NCBI GenBank assembly: GCA_947258695.1
Contig: CAMYJG010000011.1
Location: 1-54,952, forward strand
Source of the DNA: an uncultured Ectothiorhodospiraceae bacterium
Lineage (GTDB): Bacteria; Pseudomonadota; Gammaproteobacteria; UBA6429; Thiohalophilaceae
Length of the DNA: 54,952 bases
Reading direction: 5' to 3'
Shown piece after piece: positions 2,361 through 20,073 of the stretch. The notes beneath the pieces were generated by a model that was not told where the DNA came from, ran no database searches, and was given only the letters and a program-made list of their open reading frames with translations. The position numbers were made by a program, and so were the translations under genes. Position 1 is the stretch's first letter. The number at the start of each line of letters is the position of its first letter.

Positions 2361-2361
2361 T

Positions 2362-3126
2362 ATGCAGGATATGACTCTACTACTCACAGCACTATTCCTG
2401 CCTCTGTTCCCATTAAGCATGGTGTTTAATGCGCTGTTTACTCGTATACAACATGTAGCATTACGTGTCATTTTACTCGCAACGTGGCCACAAATTGGTC
2501 TTGCCATACTCTTTACAACAGACACCGCGGTACCAACCTGGATGTTAACCTGGGCACTCATTACTGCATTACTTTATGCCTTTAGAATGTTAGCGCTGCG
2601 TGATGTTGGGCAATGGACCAGTTTTCTCGCAACCTCCTGGTGGGCAGTGTTATGGTTACTCGCAACCGATCATAATCAAGACACATTACAACTTTACGCA
2701 ATCGGTTTAACTATACCCTTCATATTGCTGACACTATTAAGTGCAAATTTAATAAAACAATTTGGCGCAGCGTACTCGGGTTTACATGGTGGGCTGGCTC
2801 AATCTATGCCACGGTTTTCTGGCGTACTCGTTGTTGTCATACTCGCATCAATCGCAACACCGTTGTTCCCTAACTTCTTTATTATGTTAAAAATCATACT
2901 CAACACCTCTTCAGCCATGCCTATTGCTATCTTGGTATTACTTGTCATCTGGTTGTTATGGAGCTGGGCAGGCGTGCGTTTACTGCAAGGGTTAATTGTT
3001 GGCACAGCCAAGCCGGGTAGTGAAGGTGAAGTTTCCGATATAAAAACAGCAACGAGTTGGCTTTACGCGTTGATATTAATCACACTGGTTGCTGGCAGTG
3101 TATATTTTTCAGGAGTGTTTGCATGA
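2362..3126 (+). CDS. Unassigned polytopic membrane protein between dabB and dabA
   Basis: This 254-residue, very hydrophobic protein has roughly seven predicted membrane segments. It starts one base after the dabB stop and overlaps dabA by the four bases ATGA, so all three are surely co-translated. I do not recognise a defined family. The sequence has some feel of a Mrp/Nuo-type antiporter fragment, but no motif I can name. By position it is probably an accessory membrane subunit of this DAB complex; the best-studied DAB systems are described with DabA and DabB only. Function is inferred from context alone. Confidence 0.7.
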   Translation: MQDMTLLLTALFLPLFPLSMVFNALFTRIQHVALRVILLATWPQIGLAILFTTDTAVPTWMLTWALITALLYAFRMLALRDVGQWTSFLATSWWAVLWLLATDHNQDTLQLYAIGLTIPFILLTLLSANLIKQFGAAYSGLHGGLAQSMPRFSGVLVVVILASIATPLFPNFFIMLKIILNTSSAMPIAILVLLVIWLLWSWAGVRLLQGLIVGTAKPGSEGEVSDIKTATSWLYALILITLVAGSVYFSGVFA

Positions 3127-6100: not shown

Positions 6101-6245
6101 CCTTGTTTACAACGCCTGGATACGTTTACTCATTATCGATCCCGAAGAACAACTCGTATGCTCTTATGAGAACGGTGAATGGATCAAACGCCCATTATCT
6201 TCATTACAAAAACCCGTTTCGCCTGAGGAGGCTAATACGTTATGA
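3123..6245 (+). CDS. dabA: DabA: DUF2309 carbonic-anhydrase-like subunit of DAB pump
   Basis: This 1040-residue soluble protein of the DUF2309/UPF0753 family is the catalytic partner of DabB. It is believed to hydrate CO2 to bicarbonate in the cytoplasm, driven by ion flow. The zinc site known from Halothiobacillus is intact: C461 and D463 in FCIDTRSERIRRHLE, H719 in LLFGHGS, and C734 in DCGACGG, with the same H-to-C spacing of 15. I chose ATG 3123 (MSLPLGTKL) because it has an AGGAG site at 3111-3115 and overlaps the previous stop (ATGA). An in-frame start at 3057 would lie inside the upstream gene. It belongs to the longer members of the family. Confidence 0.92.
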   Translation: MSLPLGTKLKIRSMIYIAGEPIPYFWPMRSFIHHNPLHALEHLPFKDAVSEGERLFHGRGYLPRTTYQGYLEQGKVDHEHLRQDIKTFLSTRDNINDIDEERCLMNLLTKTTQPVIQDHSLASSADLKAAFNGQVPTTDTSINIEQIKESLRQKLQGDRPVYEAIDALYGTEIGKELDELVIKSCLDFFDEGQSVWGMPEREQGFFCAWREVASCNAKLFVRGKDINKILEANKSPEGIICRVMETLQIPEENWVAYFTSELTRLHGWAGFVRWRASAKHYYWNEKYPADLVDFAAVRLIFALALLKEQARKHIPSTASEISNLIENHAEETYLRYELNSGSVLPAFAVQVEQALAIGNKKRIINVFNKYVINKRAHEASQQAKRLRQLAIAADCKIEALKNMSEDNLAKLVNTFSDFEKQEGYTWLRAMESHAMSQLLKGVSLQPEPKREKRPFVQAMFCIDTRSERIRRHLESVGDYQTFGIAGFFGIPVSFMELGKGSQSHLCPVLLTPKNLVLEMSVAEQLDVNAATAMKKAVHELKESIFGPFVTVEAIGILFGFDMLGKTLMPQTYHHWRSQFKKKKPPTHMLLDKLDREQADSIVRAVQRAVIVQAVHQEFKLETEQVSDGMVRELREASLGKLNDTVVFKQTLKLSNQQAKDFVKRLQDVYRITPAFSRIQLEQLARIGFSLDEQVNFVSQALRSIGMTKEFSRFILLFGHGSTSDNNPYESALDCGACGGNHGLVNARALAQMANKAEVRYRLRKQGIDIAEDAWFIPALHNTTTDELKLYDLDRLPSSHIVYIDRLRNGLLSASRLCAQERLPSLQIQETPREPAAAYREIERNSMDWSQVRPEWGLSRNAYFIIGRRALTHELTLEGRAFLHSYDYRVDTKRRLLENILTGPLVVGQWINMEHYFSTVDNERFGSGSKVYHNVADRFGVMTGNLSDLRTGLPSQTVLNKGLPYHEPLRLITVMEAPFEHAKQAIEAVVTVKYLVYNAWIRLLIIDPEEQLVCSYENGEWIKRPLSSLQKPVSPEEANTL

Positions 6246-6580
6246 AAAATCTTAATTTCAGCCAAGTCAAAAAATTAGAAATTATTTTAGAAGGCGAGCA
6301 CCAGGGATTAGTGACCGACTTACTCGATCATGCCGGCGTTACCGGTTATACCATTGTTAATAACCTCTCGGGTAAAGGCAGTCATGGTTTTCATGAAGGT
6401 CACCTTATGTTTAATGAAGATGATGTGCTGGTAATGATTATTGTTGTGGTACCTGAAGAACTGGTTAATCCCATCCTCGAAGGTCTGGCGCCTTTTTATA
6501 ACGATCACACAGGTATCGTCTTTATCTCTGACATCCAGGTGACTCGATTAATTAAATTTAAAAGCGATGACAATGATTAG
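6242..6580 (+). CDS. PII-like protein of the carboxysome/DAB type (CPII-like)
   Basis: This is a 112-residue PII-fold protein (KKLEIILEGEHQGLVTDLLDHAGVTGYTIV, then GKGSHGFHEG in the T-loop region). It overlaps the dabA stop by four bases (ATGA), so its synthesis is coupled to the pump. Related carboxysome-associated PII proteins bind adenine nucleotides in a bicarbonate-dependent way. The classical GlnB uridylylation tyrosine motif is not visible. I infer that it senses adenylate or carbon status and gates the DAB complex or the nearby SulP transporter. No amt or ntr gene is nearby, which argues against a nitrogen role. Confidence 0.8.
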   Translation: MKNLNFSQVKKLEIILEGEHQGLVTDLLDHAGVTGYTIVNNLSGKGSHGFHEGHLMFNEDDVLVMIIVVVPEELVNPILEGLAPFYNDHTGIVFISDIQVTRLIKFKSDDND

Positions 6581-6647: not shown

Positions 6648-8297
6648 CTATGCCGTATGCTTTGCACTAATACTTTCCAGCGCAACTTCTCTACCAACAA
6701 TAATATTTTCGTCTGGTATATTTTTAAGTACATCCAACTTACCCAGTCTTTTTAAAGCCTGCTCTTTCGTTGTCACGATATAAACGGAGCGCCCAGCATT
6801 CACCATTTCAAGGATAGATTCTTCAAGCGCTAACGCTGCCGAAACACCAAGATGTTTAACATCAGTAATATCGACAACAAGTGTATGACAACCACCGAAC
6901 TGAGAGTTCTTACGTGTGATTGCGCGTGAGCTACCAAAGATCATTGAACCACGTAAATATAACAACATGATTTTGCCTTTAGCCTCTCTTAATATTTCTT
7001 TTTCGCGTGACGATAACTCCAGGTCTGTTTTATCAGGATCCGTCACTGCGGTAACATCATTTTCCTGCAGCTCGGATAATTTAGTGATTGTCATGATATT
7101 AGCTACAAATAATCCAATACCGACAGCAGCAATCAAATCAACAAAAACGGTAAGTAGTATTACGCCATAGGTAATTAGCGCCCCTTTACCAGAAATGAGA
7201 TGGGCACGTTTAAGAAAACCCCAATCAATAATATCAATACCGACTTTTAACGCGATACCCGCTAAAACGGCTAATGGTATGACGGAAGTTAAACCTGCCG
7301 CCCATAATATTACAATCAGTAATATTCCGGCTCTGACAAGGCCAGCCAAAGCAGTTCGTGCGCCAGCCTGGATACTGACTACGGTACCCATGGTTGCACC
7401 CGCACCGGGTAAACCACCAAACAAGCCCGACATGATATTACCAATACCCTGACCAACTAATTCTTTATCTGAGTGGTGTCGTTCACGTGTAATACTATCT
7501 GCAACCACTGATGTAAGTAATGCATCGATACAACCCAACATACCGAGTACGATGGCATCGATTAACATCACTTGCCACTGTTCAACACTAAACACAGGCA
7601 GTCGTAAATCAGGTAAACCTGTTGGTATTTCACCAATCCGACGTACATCTGTCTCACTTAAAAATATCACTGATATCAAAGTACAGACAACCAATGCGAC
7701 TAATGGAGGTGGTAGGTGTTGTTTAAGTTTTTTAGGTATCAGGAACAGGATTGATAATGTCAATATTGCTAAAACTGTTTCTTTTGTTTGCATACCAGAA
7801 AGTAGTGTGGGTAAATTTTCTAGTACGCCAATCACACCACCACCTGGTGCTGCTTGCCCGAGCAAAGGACCAATTTGTAATATGATTAAAATTATTCCGA
7901 TGCCTGACATAAAACCGGATACGACGGTATAAGGCATCAAGGTGACATACTTACCTAACTTCATTACCCCAAACAAAATTTGAAACATGCCGGCCATAAT
8001 CACAACTGTAAACGCCATCGCCATGCCATTAACAGGATCTGAAGCAATCAACTTTGCAATAACAGCAGTAAAGACAACTGTCATTGGACCGGTGGGTTCT
8101 GATATCAAGGTCGGTGAACCACCAAATAATGCAGCGAAAAAACCGATCAGGATAGCACCATATAATCCAGCCTCAGCGCCGGCACCGGATGCTACACCAA
8201 ATGCCAGTGCCATTGGTAACGCAATCACCGCGGCTGTAACGCCACCATAAATATCACCGCTCTTATGCTTTAAATTAATTTCATTAAAAACTTTCAT
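6648..8297 (-). CDS. SulP/SLC26-family anion transporter with STAS domain, candidate bicarbonate importer
   Basis: This 549-residue SulP transporter has an N-terminal membrane domain of about 10-14 helices, with the typical GLYGAILIGFFAALFGGSPTL start and the TGPMTV motif. A cytoplasmic STAS domain covers roughly the last 120 residues (ILREAKGKIMLLYLRGSMIFGS... HTLVVDITDVKHLGVSAALALEE). SulP proteins move sulfate or bicarbonate; cyanobacterial BicA is a bicarbonate member. Placement between a DAB-PII operon and cbbR makes bicarbonate the better guess here, but sulfate cannot be excluded from sequence. It starts at ATG 8297, 136 bases downstream of the cbbR stop. Confidence 0.88.
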   Translation of the reverse strand: MKVFNEINLKHKSGDIYGGVTAAVIALPMALAFGVASGAGAEAGLYGAILIGFFAALFGGSPTLISEPTGPMTVVFTAVIAKLIASDPVNGMAMAFTVVIMAGMFQILFGVMKLGKYVTLMPYTVVSGFMSGIGIILIILQIGPLLGQAAPGGGVIGVLENLPTLLSGMQTKETVLAILTLSILFLIPKKLKQHLPPPLVALVVCTLISVIFLSETDVRRIGEIPTGLPDLRLPVFSVEQWQVMLIDAIVLGMLGCIDALLTSVVADSITRERHHSDKELVGQGIGNIMSGLFGGLPGAGATMGTVVSIQAGARTALAGLVRAGILLIVILWAAGLTSVIPLAVLAGIALKVGIDIIDWGFLKRAHLISGKGALITYGVILLTVFVDLIAAVGIGLFVANIMTITKLSELQENDVTAVTDPDKTDLELSSREKEILREAKGKIMLLYLRGSMIFGSSRAITRKNSQFGGCHTLVVDITDVKHLGVSAALALEESILEMVNAGRSVYIVTTKEQALKRLGKLDVLKNIPDENIIVGREVALESISAKHTA

Positions 8298-8433: not shown

Positions 8434-9495
8434 TTATTTTTTTGTTTTTTTCTTACTAGATTTTTTCTTATTTAATGTCGTCTTTTGATCTTCTTTTAAA
8501 ATGTTTTCTAATTGAGGCCACATCTTTTGCATACGTTTGCGAATTTTTGGCTCAGAACTAATAACAAAATCGCGAAATGTTTGAGCCACCAGCGATAGCT
8601 CTTTTCCCTTGGGATAAACAATATACCAGTTACGCAATATTGGAAAACCCTCTACATCAAGTACAGTAACCGGACCATCACTACCTTCTAATGATAAAGT
8701 GTGAAGTGATAACACCGATAGACCCAGGCCACCTGCAATAGCATGTTTGATGGCTTCATTATCACCCAGCTCCATACGAATAGTCGGTTGCACGCCTACT
8801 TTTTCAAACGCTTTAAACATGGAATCTCTGACGCCTGAACCCGCTTCTCGAATAATCAACGGCTCCCTGGCGATTTCTTCGAGTTTAATATTTTTCTTAC
8901 CGACTAACGGGTGATTGCGTGGCGCCATAACGACCAACGGGTTAGGTGCAAAGGTAAACGATTCAACCTCAAATTCACCTTCCGGTGCCTGTCCCATGAT
9001 ATACAGGTCATCTTCGTTAGCACGTATACGACGGATAATACTTTCACGGTTTGTCACCATTAATGAGGGATCAATCCCCGGGTAAATCTTGCTGAATTCA
9101 CCCAGTAACTCAGGAGTCAGATATTTTGCTGTCGTCACCACGCCCATATGCAAGCGTCCACGTTTCAGGCCCTTCATATCAGAAATTTTCATTTCCAGGT
9201 TTGAAAGTGTTTCAAACATACTACGGCAGGCAGCATATAACTCTTTACCTGCCTCCGTTGGTTCAACAGTGCGACCAACATGCTCAAATAAGGGTAAACC
9301 GATTGCCTCAGATAATTTTTTTATCTGCATCGATACGGTAGGTTGAGTAAGAAAGAGCTCTTGGGCAGCACGTGTAAAGCTACCCTGGCGATAGATAGCT
9401 TCAAACACCTGAAACTGACGAAAGGTGGCATAGCGAATAAGATGATCCGGCATGGCTGACGGAGGAGTAAAATCATTGTCATTGTATATTGACAT
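8434..9495 (-). CDS. cbbR: CbbR-type LysR transcription regulator
   Basis: This LysR-family protein of 353 residues has an N-terminal winged helix-turn-helix (FRQFQVFEAIYRQGSFTRAA, then LFLTQPTVSMQIKKL) and a C-terminal periplasmic-binding-like sensor domain. Its position beside the cso operon and its CbbR-like HTH (TLR-type FRQFQVFEA start) identify it as the Calvin-cycle/CCM regulator. I start at ATG 9495, which has AGGTGA five bases upstream; the longer GTG start at 9504 would lie inside that RBS. The tail is a run of Lys and Ser (KKKSSKKKTKK), unusual for CbbR. Two palindromes upstream suggest autoregulation. Confidence 0.85.
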   Translation of the reverse strand: MSIYNDNDFTPPSAMPDHLIRYATFRQFQVFEAIYRQGSFTRAAQELFLTQPTVSMQIKKLSEAIGLPLFEHVGRTVEPTEAGKELYAACRSMFETLSNLEMKISDMKGLKRGRLHMGVVTTAKYLTPELLGEFSKIYPGIDPSLMVTNRESIIRRIRANEDDLYIMGQAPEGEFEVESFTFAPNPLVVMAPRNHPLVGKKNIKLEEIAREPLIIREAGSGVRDSMFKAFEKVGVQPTIRMELGDNEAIKHAIAGGLGLSVLSLHTLSLEGSDGPVTVLDVEGFPILRNWYIVYPKGKELSLVAQTFRDFVISSEPKIRKRMQKMWPQLENILKEDQKTTLNKKKSSKKKTKK

Positions 9496-9599
9496 ACGGC
9501 TCACCTAATCTTTAATTATTGCTCTGTGATGGCTTAAGCTCTGCGATAGTATTATGTCTGACGTCACTGCATTAATTATATCGCAAATCATATGTAAAA

Positions 9600-9637
9600 A
9601 TAGATGTTTTTTCTATTTTACATAGATTTTATTCTAT
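9600..9637. promoter_or_regulatory. Paired candidate CbbR operators upstream of cbbR
   Basis: ATAGA-N6-TCTAT lies at 9622-9637 and ATAGA-N7-TCTAT at 9600-9616; the latter is inside a longer near-perfect inverted repeat (GTAAAAATAGA with TCTATTTTAC). Their centres fall about 62 and 40 bp upstream of the predicted cbbR start. Confidence 0.5.
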
Positions 9638-9777
9638 AACAAATATATTTTACAACGTTAAATACTTTATTTGTTAGTTTTGAAAATGCTGCTTTAGAGT
9701 TATTACGAGGGAAAACTAAGTCGTGCTAGGAAGGTTAATACTTAATTGAAACTTGGGTGTGTAGACAGGAGTGATAA

Positions 9778-9813
9778 ATTCAACCAGATTTTCCAGCTGG
9801 CAACTGGTTGAAT
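9778..9813 (-). terminator. Stem-loop after mcdB, likely end of the cso operon
   Basis: ATTCAACCAG (9778-9787) and CTGGTTGAAT (9804-9813) are perfectly complementary over 10 bp, with CCAGCTGG inside the loop. It sits 20 bases past the mcdB stop on the minus strand. The following T tract is poor (AATTTATC), so it may be a weak terminator or an mRNA 3'-end stabiliser. Confidence 0.5.
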
Positions 9814-9832
9814 AGCATCAATGTATTTATCC

Positions 9833-10036
9833 TTAGTCCGGCCAAACGCGACAACCAGAACCACTGCTAAAACTAGCGACTGCTGCTTTGTTTGCTGGTT
9901 TCTTAGCTGGTGCGCTAGCCTTTTTAGTTACTGGCTCTTCTTTTTTTTCTGATGCGGTTGTTGTTTTCGCCGTACCTTGTTTTGTCATTTTCATAGAATT
10001 GACAAGTTTATTTTTCATACTTTCGTTACCGCTCAT
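9833..10036 (-). CDS. mcdB: McdB-like carboxysome positioning protein
   Basis: This 67-residue protein has low complexity, is rich in Lys, Ala, Thr and Ser, and is probably disordered. Its one distinctive feature is a tryptophan two residues from the end (GCRVWPD, W65). Alpha-McdB proteins are small, disordered, encoded next to mcdA, and have a near-terminal invariant Trp needed for carboxysome association. Its start overlaps the mcdA stop by four bases. Sequence similarity alone would not identify it, so the call rests on the overlap with a ParA gene, the carboxysome operon context, size, composition and terminal Trp. Confidence 0.75.
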   Translation of the reverse strand: MSGNESMKNKLVNSMKMTKQGTAKTTTASEKKEEPVTKKASAPAKKPANKAAVASFSSGSGCRVWPD

Positions 10037-10653
10037 TGCAAAATCTCCTGGATTAAATTCTCAATTTCTTCAACTGCCGCATCACCACGACGACCAACAT
10101 CATAAATACTCTTGCCTTCGAGTGCACTACTTCTGAAAACAGCACGTCGGCGAACCATGGCATCCGCAACCGGAATGCCTATTTCACTAACGGCATCACG
10201 AACTAGCTTTGATAGCATGGTACGTGGCTCTAGCTGGTTAATTACGAGTAAGGGTTTTAATTCAGTGTTGATCTGACGGGCTTTTTCAACAGCCTCTAAT
10301 ATATGTACTGTTGCCCACAAGTCCATCGGTGACGGTTGCACTGGGATAATGGCTCGATTGCTCACTTCCAATGCTTTATTCGTTTGTGGTGCGTAGACCG
10401 AGGGAGGACAATCTATAACAACCTGCTCATAGTCTTGTCTTAGTGTGTTAGCTTGTGCAGCGAGATCGTCTTCTGCTTCATAAACAGATACGGCATCACT
10501 TTCAGAGAAAGCACGCCATTGTAAAGAGGATCGTTGAGGATCAGCATCAATGACTGCTGTACGGCTTCGATTATTTAAGCCAGTAGCAACATTCAAAGAT
10601 AATGTTGTTTTTCCTACCCCACCCTTGTTACCGACAATGGCAATGATACTCAT
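10033..10653 (-). CDS. mcdA: McdA-like ParA-family ATPase for carboxysome positioning
   Basis: A 206-residue ParA/MinD-family ATPase. The deviant Walker A motif is KGGVGKTT with signature lysine K10 and K15; DADPQRSS and VVIDCPPS follow. It lies in the cso operon, 11 bases after the acRAF stop, and overlaps the McdB-like gene by 4 bp. ParA relatives of this type bind nucleoid DNA as ATP dimers and, with McdB, space alpha-carboxysomes through the cell by a Brownian-ratchet gradient. It lacks plasmid-partition neighbours such as parB or parS, so carboxysome positioning is the preferred role. Confidence 0.85.
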   Translation of the reverse strand: MSIIAIVGNKGGVGKTTLSLNVATGLNNRSRTAVIDADPQRSSLQWRAFSESDAVSVYEAEDDLAAQANTLRQDYEQVVIDCPPSVYAPQTNKALEVSNRAIIPVQPSPMDLWATVHILEAVEKARQINTELKPLLVINQLEPRTMLSKLVRDAVSEIGIPVADAMVRRRAVFRSSALEGKSIYDVGRRGDAAVEEIENLIQEILQ

Positions 10654-10664
10654 GAGTTAATACT

Positions 10665-10925
10665 CTATTGGTTTTTCTCACTAAACAGCGCATCTAATTG
10701 TACTGCAAATTGACGTTGTTGATCTGTGACAGATTCATCGTCTTCAGGCGCATGAATAGTTACATTAACATAATCACGGCCAAATCCCATATCGGGATAA
10801 TATTCTTCTTTTTCTGATAGTTCGGCAGCTCGATCAAGGAAATCACGTAAATCTTCGTAATCCTCAAACTGGTATTGATTTTCCAAGCGATTTGGGCGTT
10901 TTCGCTCTTTCCACTCGTTTTTCAT
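10665..10925 (-). CDS. acRAF: alpha-carboxysome Rubisco assembly factor (PCD-like)
   Basis: An 86-residue member of the pterin-4a-carbinolamine dehydratase fold. The segments RPNRLENQYQFEDYEDLRDFL and YYPDMGFGRDYVNVTIHA are characteristic of the carboxysomal branch. The catalytic histidines of true dehydratases (HHP motif) are replaced by YYP, so it is not expected to act on pterins. Family members from cso operons act as a chaperone for form IA Rubisco assembly. It is in the expected place, between the bacterioferritin-like gene and mcdA. Confidence 0.85.
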   Translation of the reverse strand: MKNEWKERKRPNRLENQYQFEDYEDLRDFLDRAAELSEKEEYYPDMGFGRDYVNVTIHAPEDDESVTDQQRQFAVQLDALFSEKNQ

Positions 10926-10965
10926 ACTATCCTCACATTAATTAAAATGTAACACGTGAAGATTG

Positions 10966-11418
10966 CTAAGTCTTGGGTGTTTCAAGTATTTTTATCCATT
11001 GAACTAGATCTGCATCATGTGCCTGCTCTTCTTTGAGTAAATCTTCAAAGAATTTACGACCGTCATGATCACCATTTTTCGCGCAGTGACGCGTTGCCTG
11101 GCTATAAAGCTCAACCAGATCTCTTTCTAGTATTGCATCTTCGAGAAGTAGTTGTCGTAAGTTAGTACCCAGTTTCACTGGACGTAGCATAGAAGCATTA
11201 GGTGCCACCCCAAGAGCGAGCATGCGAGAGATAACTCTCTCAACATGCCCCATCTCTTCGAGCGATTCCTTCTGTAACTTACTTGCATCTTCAGTCAGGC
11301 CCCAGGCCGACACCAGTTTAGCTTGAGTCGCGTACTGCTGTACTGCGGTCATTTCTAAACTAAGTGCCCTGCCTAAAAATCCCAGGACTTTATGATCTGA
11401 ACTTGTTGCGTATTGCAT
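10966..11418 (-). CDS. Bacterioferritin-like protein of the cso operon
   Basis: A four-helix-bundle ferritin-like protein of 150 residues. Visible diiron ligands are a glutamate in the first helix (LSLEMTAVQQY), the ExxH pair in LEEMGHVE, a glutamate in LEDAILERDLVELY and the ExxH pair in KEEQAHDADLV. Such genes are regular members of proteobacterial cso operons; iron storage or redox protection of the carboxysome is proposed but unproven. ATG 11418 is preceded directly by a GTG at 11421, and the choice between them is open as the RBS is weak. Confidence 0.82.
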   Translation of the reverse strand: MQYATSSDHKVLGFLGRALSLEMTAVQQYATQAKLVSAWGLTEDASKLQKESLEEMGHVERVISRMLALGVAPNASMLRPVKLGTNLRQLLLEDAILERDLVELYSQATRHCAKNGDHDGRKFFEDLLKEEQAHDADLVQWIKILETPKT

Positions 11419-11443
11419 CACGAATTATAAACGTGAAAGGTTC

Positions 11444-11761
11444 TTAAGAAGCTTTAGCAGCTTTAGCGCCTTTGCTTTTAGCAATAACAGGTTCAACTTC
11501 AGAATGCGGGCGAGCAATAATGTGAGCAGCAACTAAGCCGTCACCTACACGTTCACACGCATCAGCACCAGCACGAACTGCTGCGTTAACCGCACCAGTT
11601 TCACCACGAACTAGAACAGTTACATAACCACCACCAACGAACTCACGTCCGATCAGGGTAACTTCTGCTGCTTTAGTCATAGCATCAGCTGCTTCAATTG
11701 CTGGTACAAGACCACGTGTTTCGATCATGCCTAAAGCAATGCCGTAGGTATCTTCAGCCAT
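11444..11761 (-). CDS. csoS1: CsoS1 carboxysome shell hexamer, long form
   Basis: A BMC-domain shell protein of 105 residues ([29 protein letters not shown]... [16 protein letters not shown]). CsoS1 hexamers tile the flat facets of the carboxysome shell, with a small central pore for bicarbonate and other metabolites. It differs from its neighbour at only about six of the first 95 residues but carries an extra Ala/Lys tail (SKGAKAAKAS). An RBS GGAG lies upstream, after a strong intercistronic hairpin (11788-11821). Confidence 0.95.
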   Translation of the reverse strand: MAEDTYGIALGMIETRGLVPAIEAADAMTKAAEVTLIGREFVGGGYVTVLVRGETGAVNAAVRAGADACERVGDGLVAAHIIARPHSEVEPVIAKSKGAKAAKAS

Positions 11762-11787
11762 AGTAATTCTCCTTCAATTATTAAGAA

Positions 11788-11821
11788 TTTAATTAGCTGC
11801 GTAGCTACGCAACTAATTAAA
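11788..11821 (-). promoter_or_regulatory. Strong intercistronic hairpin between the two csoS1 genes
   Basis: Two 17-base arms (11788-11804 and 11805-11821) are complementary apart from a single C/A mismatch, with the centre at AGCT. It fills most of the 70-base gap between the csoS1 copies. No T tract follows, so it looks like an mRNA processing or stabilising element rather than a full terminator, adjusting the level of the second csoS1. Confidence 0.6.
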
Positions 11822-11831
11822 CAGTCCTACC

Positions 11832-12119
11832 TTACTTAGGTAAAACTGGCTCTACTTCTTTGTGTGGACGTGCAATGATGTGTGCAGCTACTAAGCCGTC
11901 ACCAACACGTTCACAAGCATCAGCACCGGCACGAACTGCTGCGTTAACCGCACCTGTTTCACCACGTACTAAAACTGTTACATAACCGCCGCCAACAAAT
12001 TCACGACCGATTAAACGAACTTCTGCCGCTTTAGTCATTGCGTCTGCTGCTTCGATTGCTGGTACTAAGCCACGAGTTTCGATCATGCCTAAAGCAATAC
12101 CATAGTTATCATTAGCCAT
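11832..12119 (-). CDS. csoS1: CsoS1 carboxysome shell hexamer, short form
   Basis: A single BMC domain of 95 residues, nearly identical to the adjacent CsoS1 (about 89 of 95 residues the same) but without the C-terminal Ala/Lys extension. It is expected to be a main facet component of the alpha-carboxysome shell. It follows csoS4B by 51 bases and has a GGAGA ribosome site just upstream of the ATG. Two copies in tandem are usual for proteobacterial cso operons, some of which have three. Confidence 0.95.
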
Positions 12120-12170
12120 TTGTATTTCTCCTGATATCTCAGTTTAATTAATAATAAAGTTAGTTATCTT

Positions 12171-12425
12171 TTAACCGGCACTTTCGTCCCAGTTATCAAT
12201 AATTCCTGCGATCGTTAAGTCAGTCAGTACTTCAAAATCACCTGCTGCAAAACGCGCCGCTGAACCACTTGCCGTAAATACCCAGTTTCCTTCTCTAACA
12301 CCTACTGGATCTGTAGCAACAACCTTGTTGCCCATTTTATTACGCAAAATTCTCAAACTTGTTTGTTTCAAGCCAGGTACTCGACTTGTACAAACTAAAG
12401 TTTTATCTGCCTGGTAGATATCCAT
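12171..12425 (-). CDS. csoS4B: CsoS4B carboxysome shell vertex pentamer
   Basis: An 84-residue EutN/CcmL-family (BMC-P) protein. Visible family features are VCTSRVPGLKQTSLRILRNK near the start and GVREGNWVFTASGSAARFA in the middle. Pentamers of this family close the twelve vertices of the shell. It starts 5 bases after csoS4A ends. The A/B assignment follows gene order relative to csoSCA in Halothiobacillus. Confidence 0.92.
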   Translation of the reverse strand: MDIYQADKTLVCTSRVPGLKQTSLRILRNKMGNKVVATDPVGVREGNWVFTASGSAARFAAGDFEVLTDLTIAGIIDNWDESAG

Positions 12426-12430
12426 AAAGC

Positions 12431-12676
12431 TTATTTATCATCCCAGTGGTCAATAATTCCCACTATGGTCAGATCACTTGGATATCCTTTACTTCCTGCT
12501 GCTTCACGTGCTGCAGAACTACCAACGCATATCACCCAATCTCCAGGTTTTGCGCCTACCGCATCAACAGCAACTGCCTGTGATGAACCGTCAAGCACAA
12601 CCTGCAAATGTTTGTGTTCCATCTCTGGTATACGATTCGTCGATACCAATGGTTTAACTACCTTACAGATTTTCAC
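12431..12676 (-). CDS. csoS4A: CsoS4A carboxysome shell vertex pentamer
   Basis: An 81-residue BMC-P vertex protein (MKICKVVKPLVSTNRIPEMEHKHLQVVLDG, then GDWVICVGSSAARE). It pairs with csoS4B directly downstream and follows csoSCA with a 16-base gap, the standard order. Low-abundance pentamers prevent leakage at shell vertices. Confidence 0.93.
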   Translation of the reverse strand: MKICKVVKPLVSTNRIPEMEHKHLQVVLDGSSQAVAVDAVGAKPGDWVICVGSSAAREAAGSKGYPSDLTIVGIIDHWDDK

Positions 12677-12692
12677 CTAGTTTCTCCGTGGC

Positions 12693-14216
12693 CTATATCG
12701 CCGTTTTTAACGACGAACCTAAAATTTCAATTTGTCCGTTAGCATTACAATCACGTATTACTAACAATGTATGCAGCAAACCTTTTTCAGCTAAGTCGCT
12801 ATAGCGAGCCGCTGCTGCATCGGATACACGTTGGCAATGCTCGATTGCTCTTTCACGTGATCCTGGTACTTGGCCGTGATAATCAAAACGAATCACAACG
12901 GGTACCGGTAAACCATGTGCAACATTTAACTTGCTGAAGATTTTTATTCCTACATCGAAATCCGCTGTAGATTCTTCAACTGTGTTCAAATACGCAAAGT
13001 ACGTTAAGTTGCGTAGTTGCACTTCTTCAAAGCCAATGCCTGCACCTATAAAGCGCTCAGCATGTCCGATATCTTCGTAGTGACTACCGTAGTAGTTCAT
13101 TACGTATTCAATCTGCGACAAGTTGTTGATGATGAGCTTGCTGATTAATTTCAGCATGCCTTCGCCAACACCGGCTTGCGCTTCGCGAACCATCTGCTCA
13201 ATACGTTGCGTCGCATCGTTTACAGAGAGTCGCTGTGTTTGTTGATAAACATCTTTTGCATCAACAAACTTTTCTAAATCTATGTCACCGTTTGCATCAG
13301 GTACGTGTACCTTGATTGCATCAGTGTCTGTGTCAATGCCGAGTAACAACAAGTCAATCGAGGCACCACAACAAAAACTATTTTCTATCGCCTGTTGAAA
13401 CGCTTTTAAACGATTCAAACCTTGTTTGGCGGCTAACGCATCATCTGAACCATGTGCCGCACAACCTTCATGACTCGGATCAACCGAACTAAAGTGATAC
13501 GCCACTGCTTTCAAATACCGTGTCGGCTCATCCGCTGTATTAGGGCGGCCTTCACGAAAACGCAGCATTTCTGTTTCAACCCACTTCTGGATGCTGTTAT
13601 CTATATCAAACATTGCACCGGCGTATGATTTACGACGCACCGCTTCAATCGGTAGTCTTAAAACATAACGAATAGCGTGAGCTAAACGTCCGTCCGCACA
13701 AGGCGATACATCCATGGTGTGGAATCCACACTGCTGAATAAAGTTTTGAAACTCTTCAGCACCTGATTTACTTAAACCAGTATTACTTAATGGTGCCGTA
13801 CTAAAAAAATCATCACAATAAAGCTGATAACTTTTAAACACACACCAGGCAAACAATGAACGCATATCCAGCTGTTCTACCCAGGCATCTTCCAAAACTG
13901 CTTTTGGTAACTCATACCCGAGTTCTTGTTTTGCCAGTGCTTGCGCACGCGCCACAAAATCTTCTTCGTGCTGATAGGCTGAAACCTTTCTCAAGGTTGG
14001 CACAATCGCATCAAACGATTTCTTTACAGAAGTTTCGTATTGATACAACTGTCCATTTTCAGCACCATCTACCAGCGCATGGTTCGCAGAAACCTGGGCA
14101 TAATTCAGGTTCGCAGCAGGCGTAGCAGTTGGTCGAGCCCGACCTGCTGCTGTGCCTGTTACGGCCCTTTGTCGATGCTTTGACAAAAGGCTACCTGTTG
14201 GTTTACGCCTAATCAT
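12693..14216 (-). CDS. csoSCA: CsoSCA (CsoS3) carboxysomal carbonic anhydrase
   Basis: This 507-residue epsilon/beta-type carbonic anhydrase is carried inside the carboxysome, where it turns bicarbonate into CO2 for Rubisco. Zinc ligands match the Halothiobacillus enzyme closely: C173 (with D175 and R177 in SPCADGRLAH), H241 in AYHFSSVDPSHEGC and C252. The large C-terminal half is the catalytically dead duplicated domain typical of the family. The first 35 residues are basic and unstructured (SKHRQRAVTGTAAGRARP); in relatives this end binds Rubisco, and the VTGT element resembles CsoS2 repeats. It lies between csoS2 and csoS4A. Confidence 0.95.
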   Translation of the reverse strand: MIRRKPTGSLLSKHRQRAVTGTAAGRARPTATPAANLNYAQVSANHALVDGAENGQLYQYETSVKKSFDAIVPTLRKVSAYQHEEDFVARAQALAKQELGYELPKAVLEDAWVEQLDMRSLFAWCVFKSYQLYCDDFFSTAPLSNTGLSKSGAEEFQNFIQQCGFHTMDVSPCADGRLAHAIRYVLRLPIEAVRRKSYAGAMFDIDNSIQKWVETEMLRFREGRPNTADEPTRYLKAVAYHFSSVDPSHEGCAAHGSDDALAAKQGLNRLKAFQQAIENSFCCGASIDLLLLGIDTDTDAIKVHVPDANGDIDLEKFVDAKDVYQQTQRLSVNDATQRIEQMVREAQAGVGEGMLKLISKLIINNLSQIEYVMNYYGSHYEDIGHAERFIGAGIGFEEVQLRNLTYFAYLNTVEESTADFDVGIKIFSKLNVAHGLPVPVVIRFDYHGQVPGSRERAIEHCQRVSDAAAARYSDLAEKGLLHTLLVIRDCNANGQIEILGSSLKTAI

Positions 14217-14258
14217 TTTGTCTTACCTACTAAAGCCAGGGCCCAGCTCAATACAAGC

Positions 14259-16538
14259 TTAACCGCGAGCTCCACCAGAGTAAGTGATTAATGAACCATT
14301 TTCAGTATTACCACTGCTACCTGTTACTTTACTGACAGGTACAGCCGCTTCTTCATTACGTTTATTAGTCACAGCCATTGATGACATGTCACCGCGTATC
14401 GTCGGGTTACGACGTACCGCTGAAGCGCCTTCAGTACCTGTTACATGCTCACCACGGTCCCAATCATCACCTGTGATTTTCAAACCCGCTGCCTGGCCTT
14501 CGCCAGTAACGCGTGAAACAACACGACCATCAACCTGTTGAGCTACCACTGGTGCAGGTTCTGGCATGTAACTTGTGTTTCCGCCACCAAAACGTGCTTC
14601 TTCAGTACCGGTTACCTTGCCACCAGCCATGCCGAATGGACCTGTAATATGGCCTGCCTCGTATTGGTTACCAGTAACATTACCCATGTTTGCTCCTTGA
14701 CCTTGCTGAGCACCACCAGATGGTTGTGCCACACTAAAGTCACCCCATGGTTGGCCACCCATTGATTGTGGATAGTCCGGGCTGGCTGGCGTCGCTGCTG
14801 TTGCAGGACAAGCCTGTGCCTCCTGGTCCGCACCAATGTAAGGCGTACCTGTCAATGGTTCACATGCACCTCTGCCTGCACCTGTCATCACGCCACCAAT
14901 CCCCGGTTGAATACCTGTCATTGGTGCGCCAACGTTGGTCGTGCCTTTTTGTGCACGCGCCATCGCCATATTTTTCTCAGGTGAAGCACAATAGGCTTCT
15001 GTTTGAGCCGCACCCACATAAGGTGTGCCCGTTAATGCTTTACAAGTACCTGCTTCGCTGCCAGTTACGCCATCACCACGATCAGTCATAGTGCCGGTGA
15101 CGTTCTTACCCATCAACGTATTTGATAGTCCAACCTTTCTATCAGTCGGTGCTGGTGCAGTTTTGCAGAAATCAGAATACTGCTCTGCGCTAACATAATC
15201 GTCTCCGGTAACATTGCGGCATGTACCTGGTTCATCACCAGTCACATTAGAACTACGACCTACAGTGGTACCAGACACAGAGCCGCCACGTAGTGTGCTA
15301 CTAATAGCCACTTTGTTTGGTGCTGTATCTTGTCCTTTAGCCATATATTGCGTACCTGTTAAAGAGCGATCTGAACCTGGTTCATCGCCGGTTACATTTT
15401 CAGAACGACCCACGTTATTACCTGTTACAGCTTTGCCTTTTGCCGTTTGTGACATGGTCATAGCAGCAGGCTTAGTTGGGCCTTTTGAAGCACAAAAATC
15501 TTGCGCTTGTTCTGTCGATACATACTCTGTACCCGTTACCGCTTTGCATGTTCCAGGCTCATTGCCCGTTACTGCTGCACTTCGGCTAACGTTGTTACCA
15601 CTTACACGATTACCACCACCGGTTGAGGTTACGCTTACTCGGTTAAAAGAAGCTTTTGCATCAGTCTGGCAATAATCTTTAAAAACATCCGCGCCCATGT
15701 ATTCAGTACCAGTGATGGCACGACAAGTACTTGCCTCTGTACCTGTTACATCTTCTGTACGATCAACCATGGTGCCTGTTACCGCCTGGCCAGTTGCTGT
15801 TTCAGTTACACCCACTTTCCAGGGTGCATCTGCGGCAGCTGCCTGTGCTTTACGGTGACGACCTGGGCCAGTTGCCTGAGTCTTAGTTGCTTTAGTCGTT
15901 TGCGTTTTACCCTTTTGACTACGCTGTTCGCGTAACGTTTTTGCTAACTCACGGCTAGTCATTTTAGGGTTCGCCGCGCGAGCAGCACTCGCTTCGCTTA
16001 CTGTACCGCCGGCTAATGCTGCTTTACCTTTAGTAGACATGGCCTGACGACGTGCTAAATGTGCTGCACGTGTAGGATTCATTCCAACTTTTCTCAAGTT
16101 TGGAGAAATCGCTGCAGTTGTCACACTTGCCGTTAAACTCATGTCTGTTGTTGCAGCAGGCTTATCTTTGCCTCCACAGCCACAACCACAATCTCCTTTT
16201 CTCTCAGCGCTGGCTGCCGGAGCAGTTGCCGCTGGAGTTTGAGTTGCTGTTGTACCTGGCGCAGTACGAACGCGTTCTTTACTGGCTACTGCACCTTTAC
16301 CGCTTTGAGACATCGCGATACGTCGTGCTAATGCCGCTTTTTTTGCACTACCACCTTGAGTAGCTGCTGGCGCAGATGCATAACTCGTTGCTGGAGCAAC
16401 ACTCGTCGCTGGCGCAGAAGTCGTTGCTGCTGTACCTGTAGCGTTTCGCGTACGATCAGTACTACCTAAGGCATTTTTACCTTGAGTAGACATCGCGATG
16501 CGTCGTGCTAAAGCTGCTTTGCGTGCTGTTTGTGCCAT
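14259..16538 (-). CDS. csoS2: CsoS2 carboxysome scaffold protein
   Basis: This is the disordered scaffold that ties Rubisco to the shell, 759 residues. The N-terminal domain has Rubisco-binding repeats at about residues 5-22, 65-82, 157-174 and a divergent one near 194-211 (ARKAALARRIAMS-type). The middle region (about 241-580) has six modules built on VTGT/ITGT triplets with paired cysteines. The C-terminal domain ends in the shell-anchoring peptide GSLITYSGGARG, as in Halothiobacillus. A Cys/Gly run (GDCGCGCGG, 116-123) lies between N-repeats 2 and 3. One A7 run in the coding strand (16338-16344) could allow slippage, but no frameshift heptamer was found near the middle/C-terminal boundary. 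Confidence 0.95.
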   Translation of the reverse strand: MAQTARKAALARRIAMSTQGKNALGSTDRTRNATGTAATTSAPATSVAPATSYASAPAATQGGSAKKAALARRIAMSQSGKGAVASKERVRTAPGTTATQTPAATAPAASAERKGDCGCGCGGKDKPAATTDMSLTASVTTAAISPNLRKVGMNPTRAAHLARRQAMSTKGKAALAGGTVSEASAARAANPKMTSRELAKTLREQRSQKGKTQTTKATKTQATGPGRHRKAQAAAADAPWKVGVTETATGQAVTGTMVDRTEDVTGTEASTCRAITGTEYMGADVFKDYCQTDAKASFNRVSVTSTGGGNRVSGNNVSRSAAVTGNEPGTCKAVTGTEYVSTEQAQDFCASKGPTKPAAMTMSQTAKGKAVTGNNVGRSENVTGDEPGSDRSLTGTQYMAKGQDTAPNKVAISSTLRGGSVSGTTVGRSSNVTGDEPGTCRNVTGDDYVSAEQYSDFCKTAPAPTDRKVGLSNTLMGKNVTGTMTDRGDGVTGSEAGTCKALTGTPYVGAAQTEAYCASPEKNMAMARAQKGTTNVGAPMTGIQPGIGGVMTGAGRGACEPLTGTPYIGADQEAQACPATAATPASPDYPQSMGGQPWGDFSVAQPSGGAQQGQGANMGNVTGNQYEAGHITGPFGMAGGKVTGTEEARFGGGNTSYMPEPAPVVAQQVDGRVVSRVTGEGQAAGLKITGDDWDRGEHVTGTEGASAVRRNPTIRGDMSSMAVTNKRNEEAAVPVSKVTGSSGNTENGSLITYSGGARG

Positions 16539-16553
16539 TATTATCTCCGTATT

Positions 16554-16593
16554 GTCAGTTCTGAGCGTGAAACCTTCACGCTCATTTGCTGAC
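16554..16593 (-). promoter_or_regulatory. Intercistronic stem-loop between cbbS and csoS2
   Basis: A perfect 10-bp stem (16562-16571 with 16575-16584, 3-base loop) is extended by an outer GTCAG/CTGAC pair (16554-16558 and 16589-16593). It occupies the 80-base gap after cbbS. No T tract follows. A likely role is partial termination or protection of the cbbLS mRNA end, giving more Rubisco than scaffold from one operon. Confidence 0.6.
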
Positions 16594-16618
16594 GCTGGTG
16601 ATTTGTATTAACTCGTTA

Positions 16619-16948
16619 TTAACCTTCGTAAACTACAAAGCAAACTTGCTGAGTTTGAGTGTATGCATCGTAACCGATCAAACGGATGTTGTGATCAGGG
16701 TAAGAACGACGACATGCCTCTAACTCACCAAGGATGTTAGCCATGTTAGTTTCACCGAAGAATGGAAGCTTCCACATAGTCCAGTAGTGTTCCATTTTAT
16801 TTGCAGGAAGCTCATGCTCGATAGCTGGAGACCAGCCATTAGCAACCATATAAGCAATTTGCTTTTGAACATCTTCAGCGCTTAACTTTGGAAGAAAACC
16901 AAAAGTTTCCAAAGTCGCTTTAGTTTGATAATCACCTTGTGTATTCAT
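16619..16948 (-). CDS. cbbS: Rubisco small subunit, form IA
   Basis: A 109-residue small subunit. Recognisable parts are ETFGFLPKLSAEDVQKQIAYMVANGWSPAIEHE, the WTMWKLPFFGETN segment and ACRRSYPDHNIRLIGYDAYTQTQ. Together with CbbL it forms the L8S8 enzyme packed inside carboxysomes. It follows cbbL by 41 bases and precedes csoS2, the standard cso order. Confidence 0.97.
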   Translation of the reverse strand: MNTQGDYQTKATLETFGFLPKLSAEDVQKQIAYMVANGWSPAIEHELPANKMEHYWTMWKLPFFGETNMANILGELEACRRSYPDHNIRLIGYDAYTQTQQVCFVVYEG

Positions 16949-16989
16949 TGATTAATCCTCAATATTTTATACGTTAAACGAAACTTGAC

Positions 16990-18408
16990 TTACTGAACGT
17001 CTAGTTTGTCAACAGTATCAAATTCAAACTTGATTTCTTTCCAAGTATCCATAGCGATAGCCAATTCCGGGCTGTGCTTAGCAGCTTCAGTAAGAATGTC
17101 ACGAGCTTCTTTCTCGATTTCACGACCTTCGTTACGAGCTTTAACCGATGCTTCAAGAGCAACACGGTTTGCACAAGCACCTGCAGCGTTACCCCATGGG
17201 TGACCCTGTGTACCACCACCGAACTGAAGACATGAGTCATCGCCGAAGATAGTTACTAGCGCTGGCATATGCCATACGTGGATACCACCCGATGCTACAG
17301 CGAATACGCCTGGCATTGAGCCCCAATCCTGGTCGAAGAACACACCACGTGAACGATCTTCAGGAACGAAAGATTCACGTAATTGGTCAACGAAACCTAA
17401 TGTAGAGTTACGGTCACCTTCTAACTTACCTACAACAGTACCAGTGTGAAGCTGATCACCACCTGATAAACGTAAACACTTAGCTAATACGCGGAAGTGA
17501 ATACCGTGATGTGGGTTACGATCGATTACCGCGTGCATTGCACGGTGAATGTGTAACAAGATACCGTTTTCACGACACCAGTTAGCAAGACCTGTATTTG
17601 CAGTGAAACCACCGGTTAAGAAGTCATGCATGATGATTGGCATGTTAAGTTCTTTTGCATACTCAGCACGCTTGTACATTTCTTCTGGTGTAGAAGCTGT
17701 TACGTTTAAGTAGTGACCTTTACGCTCACCCGTTTCACGTTCTGCTTTATCGATTGCTTCTGCAACGAAGTCCCAACGATCTCTCCAACGCATGAATGGT
17801 TGTGAGTTGATATTTTCATCATCTTTCGTTAAATCAAGACCACCACGTAAACATTCGTATACTGCACGACCGTAGTTCTTAGCTGATAAACCTAATTTAG
17901 GTTTGATAGTACAACCAAGTAATGGACGACCGTATTTGTTTAAACGATCACGTTCTAATGCAATACCCGCTGGTGGACCACCACAAGTCTTGATGTATGC
18001 AATTGGGAAACGAATATCTTCTAAACGTAAAGAACGTAATGCTTTAAAGCCGAATACGTTACCAACTAAAGAAGTTAATACGTTTACAACTGAACCTTCT
18101 TCAAAAAGGTCTAATGGGTATGCGATGAACGTGTAGAACGCGCTTGGATCACCCGGTACGTCTTCGATGCGGTATGCACGGCCTTTGTAGAATTCTAAAT
18201 CCGTTAAGTATTCAGACCATACAGTTGACCAAGTACCCGTTGATGATTCAGCAGCTACAGCAGCAGCAACCTCTTCACGGGGCACGCCTTCCTGACCAAT
18301 AACCTTGAAACAAGCCAAAAGATCGGTATCTAGAGGCACATAGTCTGGCGTCCAATATTTATCGCGGTATTCCTTAACACCCGCTTCATAAGCTTTTGAT
18401 GCTGACAT
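16990..18408 (-). CDS. cbbL: Rubisco large subunit, form IA
   Basis: This 472-residue large subunit carboxylates ribulose-1,5-bisphosphate. Active-site segments are all intact: TIKPKLGLS (catalytic Lys169), [10 protein letters not shown] with Lys195 carbamylated in the active enzyme, [12 protein letters not shown], the loop-6 segment [11 protein letters not shown] and [10 protein letters not shown]. The N-terminal segment and operon mark form IA of the carboxysomal kind. An AGGAG ribosome site lies at 18416-18420. It is the first gene of the long cso operon running to mcdB. Confidence 0.98.
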
Positions 18409-18439
18409 GATTAAACTCCTACATAGTTTAAGTATCTAT

Positions 18440-18467
18440 GATGTTTAAAAAACGATGTTTAAAAAAC
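18440..18467. repeat. Tandem 14-bp direct repeat in the cbbL leader
   Basis: The unit GATGTTTAAAAAAC occurs twice head to tail (18440-18453 and 18454-18467). It lies between the predicted cbbL start site and the RBS, so it would be transcribed. It may be a simple slippage duplication. Confidence 0.8.
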
Positions 18468-18542
18468 AACTGTTAAAAATTCGATGGCGCAAGCATAGTC
18501 GTAACCCTATACATTGATCCAATTGATATTTCATAAATAAAA

Positions 18543-18560
18543 CATAGATAAACATCTATG
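18543..18560. promoter_or_regulatory. Candidate CbbR operator upstream of cbbL
   Basis: CATAGAT-aaac-ATCTATG is a perfect 7-bp inverted repeat. Its core ATAGA-N6-TCTAT is shared with sites upstream of csoS1D and cbbR. It is not a strict T-N11-A LysR box, since the centre falls between bases, so the regulator is inferred. Confidence 0.55.
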
Positions 18561-18734
18561 ATTTATATCTTTTACCTGTCTAAACAAGTATATCTAGCCA
18601 ATTGAGCATAAATATTACCTATGCTCACGTTTCCATTTCGGTTATTTAGTGAATTCTGCAAATTTGAAAGGCGTAAATATAGCACCGAATCAATTTATAG
18701 CCAGATTTTCACTCAATAATCGATAATTAAATAT

Positions 18735-19313
18735 TTATGCTCTCCAATGGCGTTGCTGCATTGTGTTTCGCATTTCCCGGGTTTTCTCCAACATACGGTA
18801 TGTTGAGCGATTGCGGTTGTAATGCGATACCGCGAGCAAATCAATCCAAAGGACTTCATGTGACTCATCATTGCCCGGTACTGGTAGGCGATCATCAATT
18901 TCGAGCAAAAAGCGAATATCGATATGCTGATGCTCTGGATCATTGCCATACGGGGCAATAGAGTGAATATCAACATCAAAAATGCCGCCATCCACTAATT
19001 TAATCTGTTCGGCACTAATGCCGGTTTCTTCTTCTGTTTCTTTTAAGGCAACACGTACAATGTCCGCATCACCATCTGCATGCCCACCAGGTTGAAACCA
19101 CTGGTTCAACTTTTTGTGGTGCATCATCAAAACCTTACTTCGATCAGGATTGACAACCCACGCAGAACCCGTCACATGTGCTGGCCATAATTCACGAAAG
19201 AAAACATTTTCATGGCCTTCAACATAACCAATTGCGCGTTGCACAAAGCCAGATTCGTCCATAAAACGCGTCTGGTAATTCACTAACAGGCTAAGTAACT
19301 GTTGGCGATGCAT
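18735..19313 (-). CDS. Nudix hydrolase linked to csoS1D
   Basis: A 192-residue Nudix-fold hydrolase. The Nudix box is recognisable but altered: GHADGDADIVRVALKETEEETGI keeps the metal-binding EExxEE-type glutamates, while the first conserved Glu is Ala and the Arg is Lys. I start at ATG 19313, which has GAGG overlapping the csoS1D stop; a longer frame would run back into csoS1D. Translation coupling to a shell protein gene suggests a carboxysome-related job, possibly clearing a damaged sugar phosphate or nucleotide. The substrate is unknown. Confidence 0.8.
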   Translation of the reverse strand: MHRQQLLSLLVNYQTRFMDESGFVQRAIGYVEGHENVFFRELWPAHVTGSAWVVNPDRSKVLMMHHKKLNQWFQPGGHADGDADIVRVALKETEEETGISAEQIKLVDGGIFDVDIHSIAPYGNDPEHQHIDIRFLLEIDDRLPVPGNDESHEVLWIDLLAVSHYNRNRSTYRMLEKTREMRNTMQQRHWRA

Positions 19314-19323
19314 CGGTTCTGCC

Positions 19324-19944
19324 TCAGGTTCCTGCCGGGTTCTGTACCGCAGCAATGGCAGCTGCTGCTGCCTCTTCAACGTCCGCTTCACGCCCGGATA
19401 TGGTTAAACGGCCATAAGCACCGACTGCCTTCACATCAACCAGGTTGATATTGGCGGCTTTTTCCGCCTGGTTAGCAGCATAAACGATGTAACCTGCTGG
19501 TTCGGTTTCAAGAATAAACATGCTGTCCCCTGGAATCATCATGTTACCCCGGCGATCTGAACGGTTTACCAGCATGGTGTGATCCGAGGTCATACCGCGG
19601 ATAATTTCCTGCCAGGTAATTTCACACCGCTGGCGATCATTCACATTAGCATTGAGGTTACGCAATACTGCGTGCCCTGCTTCAATGACGTCACTTGAAG
19701 TTCGGTGATGTAAAATCATGGAGCCAAATGCACGCTCAACAACTTGCTGGGCCAGGTGAACTTGGGTAGCCTTTAAGGCGATATCAGTATATTGGTGGAT
19801 GGCCATACCTGGCGCTACTTCAACCCACAAAGCAGCATTACCCGGCACAGGCGGAAAACCCTGCGACACACCCGCTATGTATTCAGCAAGTTGTGGCTGC
19901 AGAGAATCGATATAGACATAGGTTCTAAGTTCTACCTTATCCAT
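19324..19944 (-). CDS. csoS1D: CsoS1D tandem-BMC shell protein
   Basis: A 206-residue BMC-T protein with two fused BMC domains ([20 protein letters not shown]... and [39 protein letters not shown]). CsoS1D forms stacked pseudohexameric trimers with a large, gated pore thought to admit RuBP. It heads a two-gene unit with the Nudix gene, placed upstream of cbbL and under its own promoter, whereas in Halothiobacillus it lies downstream in the cso region. Confidence 0.92.
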
Positions 19945-20055
19945 ATTTATTCACTTTTCTCTTCAAAATTGCCCATTGATATATGCCTATATTTTGCAGC
20001 CGGAAATTTTAGGAAATTCTATAGTTTTATACAAATTAATATTAACTAGATAATC

Positions 20056-20073
20056 GATAGACTATCGTCTATC
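20056..20073. promoter_or_regulatory. Candidate CbbR operator upstream of csoS1D
   Basis: GATAGAC-tatc-GTCTATC is a perfect 7-bp inverted repeat with the same ATAGA-N6-TCTAT core as the cbbL and cbbR upstream sites. It is centred about -65 from a well-formed promoter. Confidence 0.58.

Follow-up and report, generated by a model that had tools for sequence, protein, structure and literature searches.

Three promoters of one carboxysome gene cluster carry the same 16-bp palindrome, ATAGA-N6-TCTAT. Which regulator reads this palindrome, and what does it do there? The cluster is situated in a stretch of 54,952 nucleotides (the window in what follows), positions 1 to 54,952 of the forward strand of contig CAMYJG010000011.1 in assembly GCA_947258695.1 of an uncultured Ectothiorhodospiraceae bacterium from the family Thiohalophilaceae. 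Exact copies are found upstream of cbbR, which codes for a LysR-type regulator, of cbbL, and of a csoS1D-type shell protein gene. As judged by comparison of sequences, the palindrome is highly likely to be the high-affinity recognition site of the CbbR encoded in the cluster, which would co-control the cbbL/carboxysome operon, csoS1D and its own gene. The features of the three promoters are as follows, with offsets such as +32 counted downstream from the recognition site.

8434..9504, minus strand: cbbR, LysR-type regulator (Pfam HTH_1 and LysR_substrate; nearest solved chain 5y2v)
9575..9580, minus strand: -10 box TATAAT of cbbR; recognition-site centre at about -61.5
9590..9605, minus strand: activation-site register +32 of cbbR, ATCTATTTTTACATAT; register only, overlapping the right arm of a variant palindrome with N7 (see below)
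9622..9637, minus strand: predicted CbbR recognition site of cbbR, ATAGAATAAAATCTAT; exact match, exact in 5/44 cbbR upstream regions of relatives
16990..18408, minus strand: cbbL, which opens the carboxysome operon (Pfam RuBisCO_large)
18492..18497, minus strand: -10 box TATGCT of cbbL; recognition-site centre at about -66.5, relatives' -10 peak at +62
18512..18527, minus strand: activation-site register +32 of cbbL, ATCAATTGGATCAATG; left half kept in 17 relatives' promoters
18544..18559, minus strand: predicted CbbR recognition site of the cbbL/carboxysome operon, ATAGATGTTTATCTAT; exact match, present in relatives
19324..19944, minus strand: csoS1D-type shell protein gene (Pfam BMC)
20006..20011, minus strand: -10 box TAAAAT of csoS1D; recognition-site centre at about -65.5
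20025..20040, minus strand: activation-site register +32 of csoS1D, ATTAATTTGTATAAAA; register only
20057..20072, minus strand: predicted CbbR recognition site of csoS1D, ATAGACGATAGTCTAT; exact match, exact in 5/14 csoS1D upstream regions of relatives

The palindromes lie about 115-150 bp upstream of the gene starts of cbbL, csoS1D and cbbR. With transcription starts predicted from the sequence, each placed 12 bp downstream of the position where the -10 box begins, they are centred at about -60 to -70, which fits a CbbR operator. An earlier sequence-only reading had described the repeat at these three promoters and placed its centre 62 to 67 bp from the predicted starts. The repeat is indeed exact at all three, and the computed distances are 61.5 bp (cbbR), 66.5 bp (cbbL) and 65.5 bp (csoS1D). 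The proposed even-centred recognition site for a LysR protein, at around -62 to -67, is thus backed by position and, as described below, by spacing and conservation. Dinucleotide shuffling of the 300 bp that precede each gene produces an exact site in 18 (cbbR), 21 (cbbL) and 43 (csoS1D) of 20,000 rounds, so that its presence at each promoter is significant. The window has no copies with one mismatch. It holds 81 palindromes of the 5-N6-5 form, in which the arm ATAGA is used three times, as is the low-complexity arm TTTTA.

The relatives used for comparison were 80 CbbR loci found by protein similarity, with their carbon genes mapped, supplemented by cbbL loci from genomes of the family; the conservation counts include only the loci fetched by protein similarity and leave out the window. 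Conservation of the site crosses genera and is strongest at the carboxysomal cbbL, represented by 17 promoters (cbbL identity of at least 88%), where the site is found at -94 to -132 of the start codon (-151 in the window). At cbbL's own place the site is exact in 8/17 promoters and has at most one mismatch in 16/17, the last one having two. Within 350 bp of cbbL, 12/17 have an exact site, including four at -252 to -287 that belong to the divergent csoS1D, and 8/17 is therefore the figure for cbbL's own place. The other spacings from N0 to N15 give no exact match within the same 350 bp, and the best of them reaches 5/17 at one mismatch. Each promoter has a site of its own in all four divergent csoS1D-cbbL pairs (L032, L034, L039 and L045). 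Exact sites also precede both cbbL and csoS1D in one family genome (G038), and an exact site is found at -129 of cbbL on a plasmid of Candidatus Thiodictyon syntrophicum.

This spacing bears on the identity of the binding protein. Another LysR-type regulator might occupy the palindrome, for example OxyR with its ATAG/CTAT repeats. Repeated ATAGnt elements are recognised by OxyR, according to those parts of the literature that were accessible, and further LysR proteins are encoded in the same genome, the next of them being only 35% identical to CbbR. The OxyR spacing is ATAG-N7-CTAT, equal to N5 between 5-bp arms. At the 17 carboxysomal cbbL promoters, N5 gives 0/17 exact and 0/17 one-mismatch sites within 350 bp, whereas N6 gives 12/17 and 16/17. 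Binding by OxyR or a similar regulator is thus very improbable, and the variation of the operator letters described next speaks against it as well.

The letters of the operator follow the recognition helix of the neighbouring CbbR, which in the window is as follows.

9313..9348, minus strand: CbbR recognition helix TQPTVSMQIKKL, QPT class (from the helix-turn-helix alignment)

QPT helices go with ATAGA-N6-TCTAT, QPAVSM helices with ATAAG-N6-CTTAT, and QPAVSI helices with ATTTA-N6-TAAAT. The three operator classes were set after the sequences had been viewed; the rule was then written down and tested on other promoters. A class-wide search of 274 genomes gave 128 loci, of which 73 had a divergent CbbR start and 64 a helix of a predicted class; the loci dropped before the count were 53 in which no CbbR start was found, two that were not divergent, and nine with a helix outside the classes. 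The regular expression used in the test was broader than the rule as written, accepting QPT.SA (L320, L329 and L330) and QPAIS helices and not requiring the KKL, KQLE or KRLE ends, and a few test promoters came from genomes with another locus used earlier. On these unused promoters the rule was uniquely right in 51/64 cases and wrong in none, with 13 undecided (seven ties and six promoters without a site), while permuted predictions were right in 20.6 cases on average and in 34 at most in 20,000 permutations. The score is 48/61 when the three QPT.SA rows are left out, and 47 right, 0 wrong and 17 undecided when at most one mismatch is allowed. At that same limit each of the three classes prefers N6 (24/31, 19/23 and 5/10; the next spacings have 5, 7 and 2). 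In a tree for which the helix columns were left out, the helix threonine and ATAGA occur together in 77/77 rows. The helix of chain 5y2v, TQPTVSSQIKQL, is also of the QPT type in the alignment; this chain carries the label 'Rubisco operon transcriptional regulator' and is presumably NdhR, a regulator of cyanobacteria.

Because the operator letters follow the helix class of CbbR on promoters that had not been used to derive the rule, the binder is very probably CbbR. The sequence-only reading had left the choice between a distinct CbbR site and another regulator, and the evidence favours the former; for OxyR or another LysR protein, operator letters that vary along with the helix class of the adjoining CbbR are difficult to accommodate.

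Some comparison operators fall outside these counts. In the cbbR-cbbL region of a Nitrobacter hamburgensis plasmid (L204, 2786-2997), arms of the ATAAG type fit better with N5 than with N6, and Alphaproteobacteria may thus use a different spacing. The operator of Cupriavidus necator pHG1 reads TTAAG-N6-CTTAT. Cereibacter, Acidovorax and an Igneacidithiobacillus metagenome-assembled genome gave no clear site. None of the claims made here is based on these five cases.

The promoters of relatives also show what follows the recognition site. In 50 promoters of the ATAGA class an element at +32 has on average 6.2/10 matches to ATTGA-N6-TTTAT (next offset 4.6), and it is clearer in 39 promoters of the ATAAG class (8.4/10; next offset 5.7), so that a second site is found at the -35 region in a fixed register in both promoter classes. 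At the 17 carboxysomal cbbL promoters the left half of this element stands out (5.6/7; next 4.2 at +36), while the whole dyad has no peak (4.65/10 at +32 versus 4.59 at +36). The -10 box of these 17 promoters stands out at +62 (3.59/6; next 2.71). The pooled ATAGA class has a weak -10 signal, 2.48/6 at +62 versus 2.40 at +45, and in the ATAAG class the score at +45, inside the second element, is 3.67, slightly above that at +60 (3.54); the sets behind the pooled +32 and -10 profiles include some chance one-mismatch picks. These profiles support the assignment of the site, the weaker element 32 bp further on and the -10 box at 62 bp to the recognition-plus-activation layout of LysR promoters. 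The weak -35 boxes would fit an activation site that overlaps the -35 region.

The sequence-only reading had likened a variant palindrome with N7 at 9600-9616, at about -40 of cbbR, to an activation site. The variant exists, and its place is not in the +32 register that is conserved in relatives. It was set aside as an activation site: the relatives keep the +32 element, which corresponds to 9590-9605 in the window, and only the right arm of the variant is common to both.

The layout also helps to decide what CbbR does at its site. CbbR could act mainly as a repressor in the manner of NdhR, being released under carbon shortage, and the motif and the QPT helix are indeed common to the window and to cyanobacterial NdhR, which is reported to be predominantly a repressor. 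A centre near -66, combined with a further element around the -35 region, is, however, the arrangement of a LysR activator, and a mainly repressing CbbR is therefore considered rather unlikely, if less so than a different binding protein.

By combining these observations, it is possible to describe how the promoters might work. CbbR would bind as a tetramer, one dimer holding ATAGA-N6-TCTAT about a centre near -66 and the other the weaker element, which lies three helical turns (32 bp) further downstream and covers the -35 region. A metabolite signalling carbon shortage would then move the latter contact and allow RNA polymerase to initiate. In this way one regulator would govern the RuBisCO/carboxysome operon, its own gene cbbR, and csoS1D along with the adjacent NUDIX gene, perhaps together with a bicA-like transporter gene.

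The distribution of the palindrome was also followed through 40 genomes of the window's family, and the contexts of all 62 exact places were inspected (the reversed pattern has 113). Twenty-two of the 62 lie upstream of cbbL, csoS1D, cbbR or a transporter gene of the SbtA or SulP type, and one of these 22 (L164) is inside the cbbR open reading frame (ORF) as extended by the ORF caller. Among the matches listed for the reversed control, one is on a contig with cbbL, more than 7 kb apart from it. SbtA and SulP account for one exact place each in the family scan, and a further sulP gene has an exact site in locus L044. These cases suggest that one regulator serves the carboxysome, the shell and, in single relatives, bicarbonate-uptake genes.

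Several findings weigh against CbbR control through this palindrome, and they concern both the number of its copies and its reach. The genome to which the window belongs (3.2 Mb in 164 contigs) contains four exact places, the three sites of the window and a fourth that falls within an ORF of contig C28, compared with six for the reversed control pattern; at one mismatch there are 104 places versus 166, so that degenerate copies are not enriched. In shuffles of the window, sites with at most one mismatch number 1.82 on average and 29/100 shuffles reach three, which is not significant. Of the 62 exact places in the family, 40 are elsewhere than at the genes named above, 22 within ORFs and 18 in intergenic DNA. 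Exact sites stand upstream of only 5/14 csoS1D, 5/44 cbbR and 1/21 sulP genes of relatives; for cbbR at one mismatch the count is 11/44, while other spacings reach up to 6/44. The 400 bp upstream of dabB in the window have no site with two or fewer mismatches (best 3), and the 3-kb locus of the phosphoribulokinase gene in the same genome has no site either (best 3 mismatches). In a class-wide set of 25 cbbL promoters (84-93% identity, no adjoining CbbR), 13 have a site with at most one mismatch, two have one with two mismatches, and ten have none within that limit. On the tree mentioned above, finally, the labels need three changes and provide only two independent pairs.

These points set the limits of the proposal. 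Since the one-mismatch counts are unremarkable in both window and genome, the signal resides in exact sites at particular promoters; a one-mismatch genome scan as a means of finding targets was dropped, giving no excess over the control. The gaps in the class-wide set indicate that the site is strongly kept among the relatives of this CbbR and not across all carboxysome-type lineages. The operator letters are firmly linked to the clade of CbbR, whereas the claim that a given residue reads a given base, with so few independent changes behind it, is not firm. That the palindromes are chance products of AT-rich intergenic DNA would agree with control palindromes being as frequent in the genome or more so, and with the lack of enrichment at one mismatch. 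The shuffles of the upstream regions, the nearly fixed position and spacing in relatives and the successful prediction on unused promoters make such an origin extremely improbable.

The remaining genes of the locus complete the picture. The carboxysome genes sit between cbbL and cbbR, an order taken from the ORFs and their translations. The csoS1D-type protein scores 219 bits against the model of the beta-carboxysome protein CcmP, under its cut-off of 340. A NUDIX gene overlaps the ORF of this protein and adjoins csoS1D in many relatives. Two further features lie on the other side of cbbR.

6648..8297, minus strand: gene for a BicA-like bicarbonate transporter of the SulP type, following cbbR (NCBIfam BicA, 845 bits, cut-off 880)
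681-6580, plus strand: dabB/dabA-like genes and a P-II-like gene (named by eye and by synteny)

A sulP gene is found behind cbbR in many of the mapped relatives, so that the cbbR promoter may also drive the bicA-like gene, which is possibly co-transcribed with cbbR. For dabB of relatives the count is 0/3 at dabB's own place, and the single site within range is shared with csoS1D (L051). In another locus of the family (L189, 2544-2559) an exact site lies 122 bp upstream of an SbtA-type transporter gene; the SbtA-like protein has no NCBIfam name and was named by Pfam (Sbt_1). The ORF that holds the fourth exact copy of the genome, on C28, looks by eye like a fatty acid desaturase. In three genomes of one genus (L119, L120 and L121, at 1501) an exact site stands 9 bp before a 159-residue ORF, which in L119 is CoaD-like by eye; this site is conserved, apparently outside carbon fixation.

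The results give a precise form of the CbbR operator, away from the published consensus, for a large group of chemolithoautotrophs, and turn the prediction of CbbR targets into a testable sequence rule. They also link the control of proteobacterial alpha-carboxysomes to the operator of cyanobacterial NdhR. We lean, by a little, towards a more general statement: CbbR-type regulators may have a helix-to-operator code within a T-N12-A frame (QPT with ATAGA, QPAVSM with ATAAG, QPAVSI with ATTTA), alpha-carboxysome CbbR and NdhR sharing one operator, and regulons being assignable from sequence. If this is true, sequence alone would allow genes for RuBisCO, the shell and bicarbonate transport to be assigned to CbbR regulons in many uncultured autotrophs.

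How does this operator compare with those already described? The published proteobacterial CbbR sites are given as T-N11-A or TNA-N7-TNA in the accessible part of PMC2942843, where a supplement legend has the looser TNA-N7/8-TNA; TnA-n7/8-AnT is a manual search pattern in the sections available of PMC5506194. The RuBisCO promoters, the LysR-type regulator and the pairing of a recognition with an activation site are common to the published operators and to those of the window (PMC2942843, in part). The classical LysR box T-N11-A does not describe the present sites, which are T-N12-A, and the corresponding N5 spacing is found in 0/17 carboxysomal cbbL promoters. Nor does the consensus TNA-N7-TNA, since the arm here is TAG in dyad register about an even centre. 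The looser TNA-N7/8 forms, as far as those sources go, admit the even spacing of the present sites and not their letters.

According to the portion available of PMC12609908, CutR and other regulators have even-spaced T-n12-A sites. CutR of Mycobacterium sp. JC1, with TTAAG-N6-CTTAA at -60, has the spacing found here and differs in its letters, in being a dimeric regulator for which no activation site was found, and in its target, CO dehydrogenase (PMC12609908). The cyanobacterial RbcR, with ATTA(G/A)-N5-(C/T)TAAT, is likewise a CbbR-type activator of RuBisCO and carbon-uptake genes, and differs in its odd N5 spacing and in its letters (PMC13249358, in part).

The closest match is the operator of cyanobacterial NdhR/CcmR, ATAG-N8-CTAT, which has the letters and the spacing of the present sites and carbon-concentrating genes as its targets, as described in the accessible text of the review PMC13249358; the sequence-only reading had not mentioned this published motif. 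A literature search for CbbR with ATAGA letters, covering few subscription papers, returned only this review, itself available in part. In the window, too, ATAG-N8-CTAT stands upstream of carbon-concentrating genes, and CbbR has a helix of the QPT type. The two systems differ in that NdhR is reported, in the sources at hand, to be mostly a repressor and belongs to cyanobacteria, whereas the sites described here have an activator layout, occur in Gammaproteobacteria and extend to alpha-carboxysome targets. The palindrome is very probably a CbbR operator whose letters depart from the published consensus for proteobacteria and resemble the motif of NdhR.

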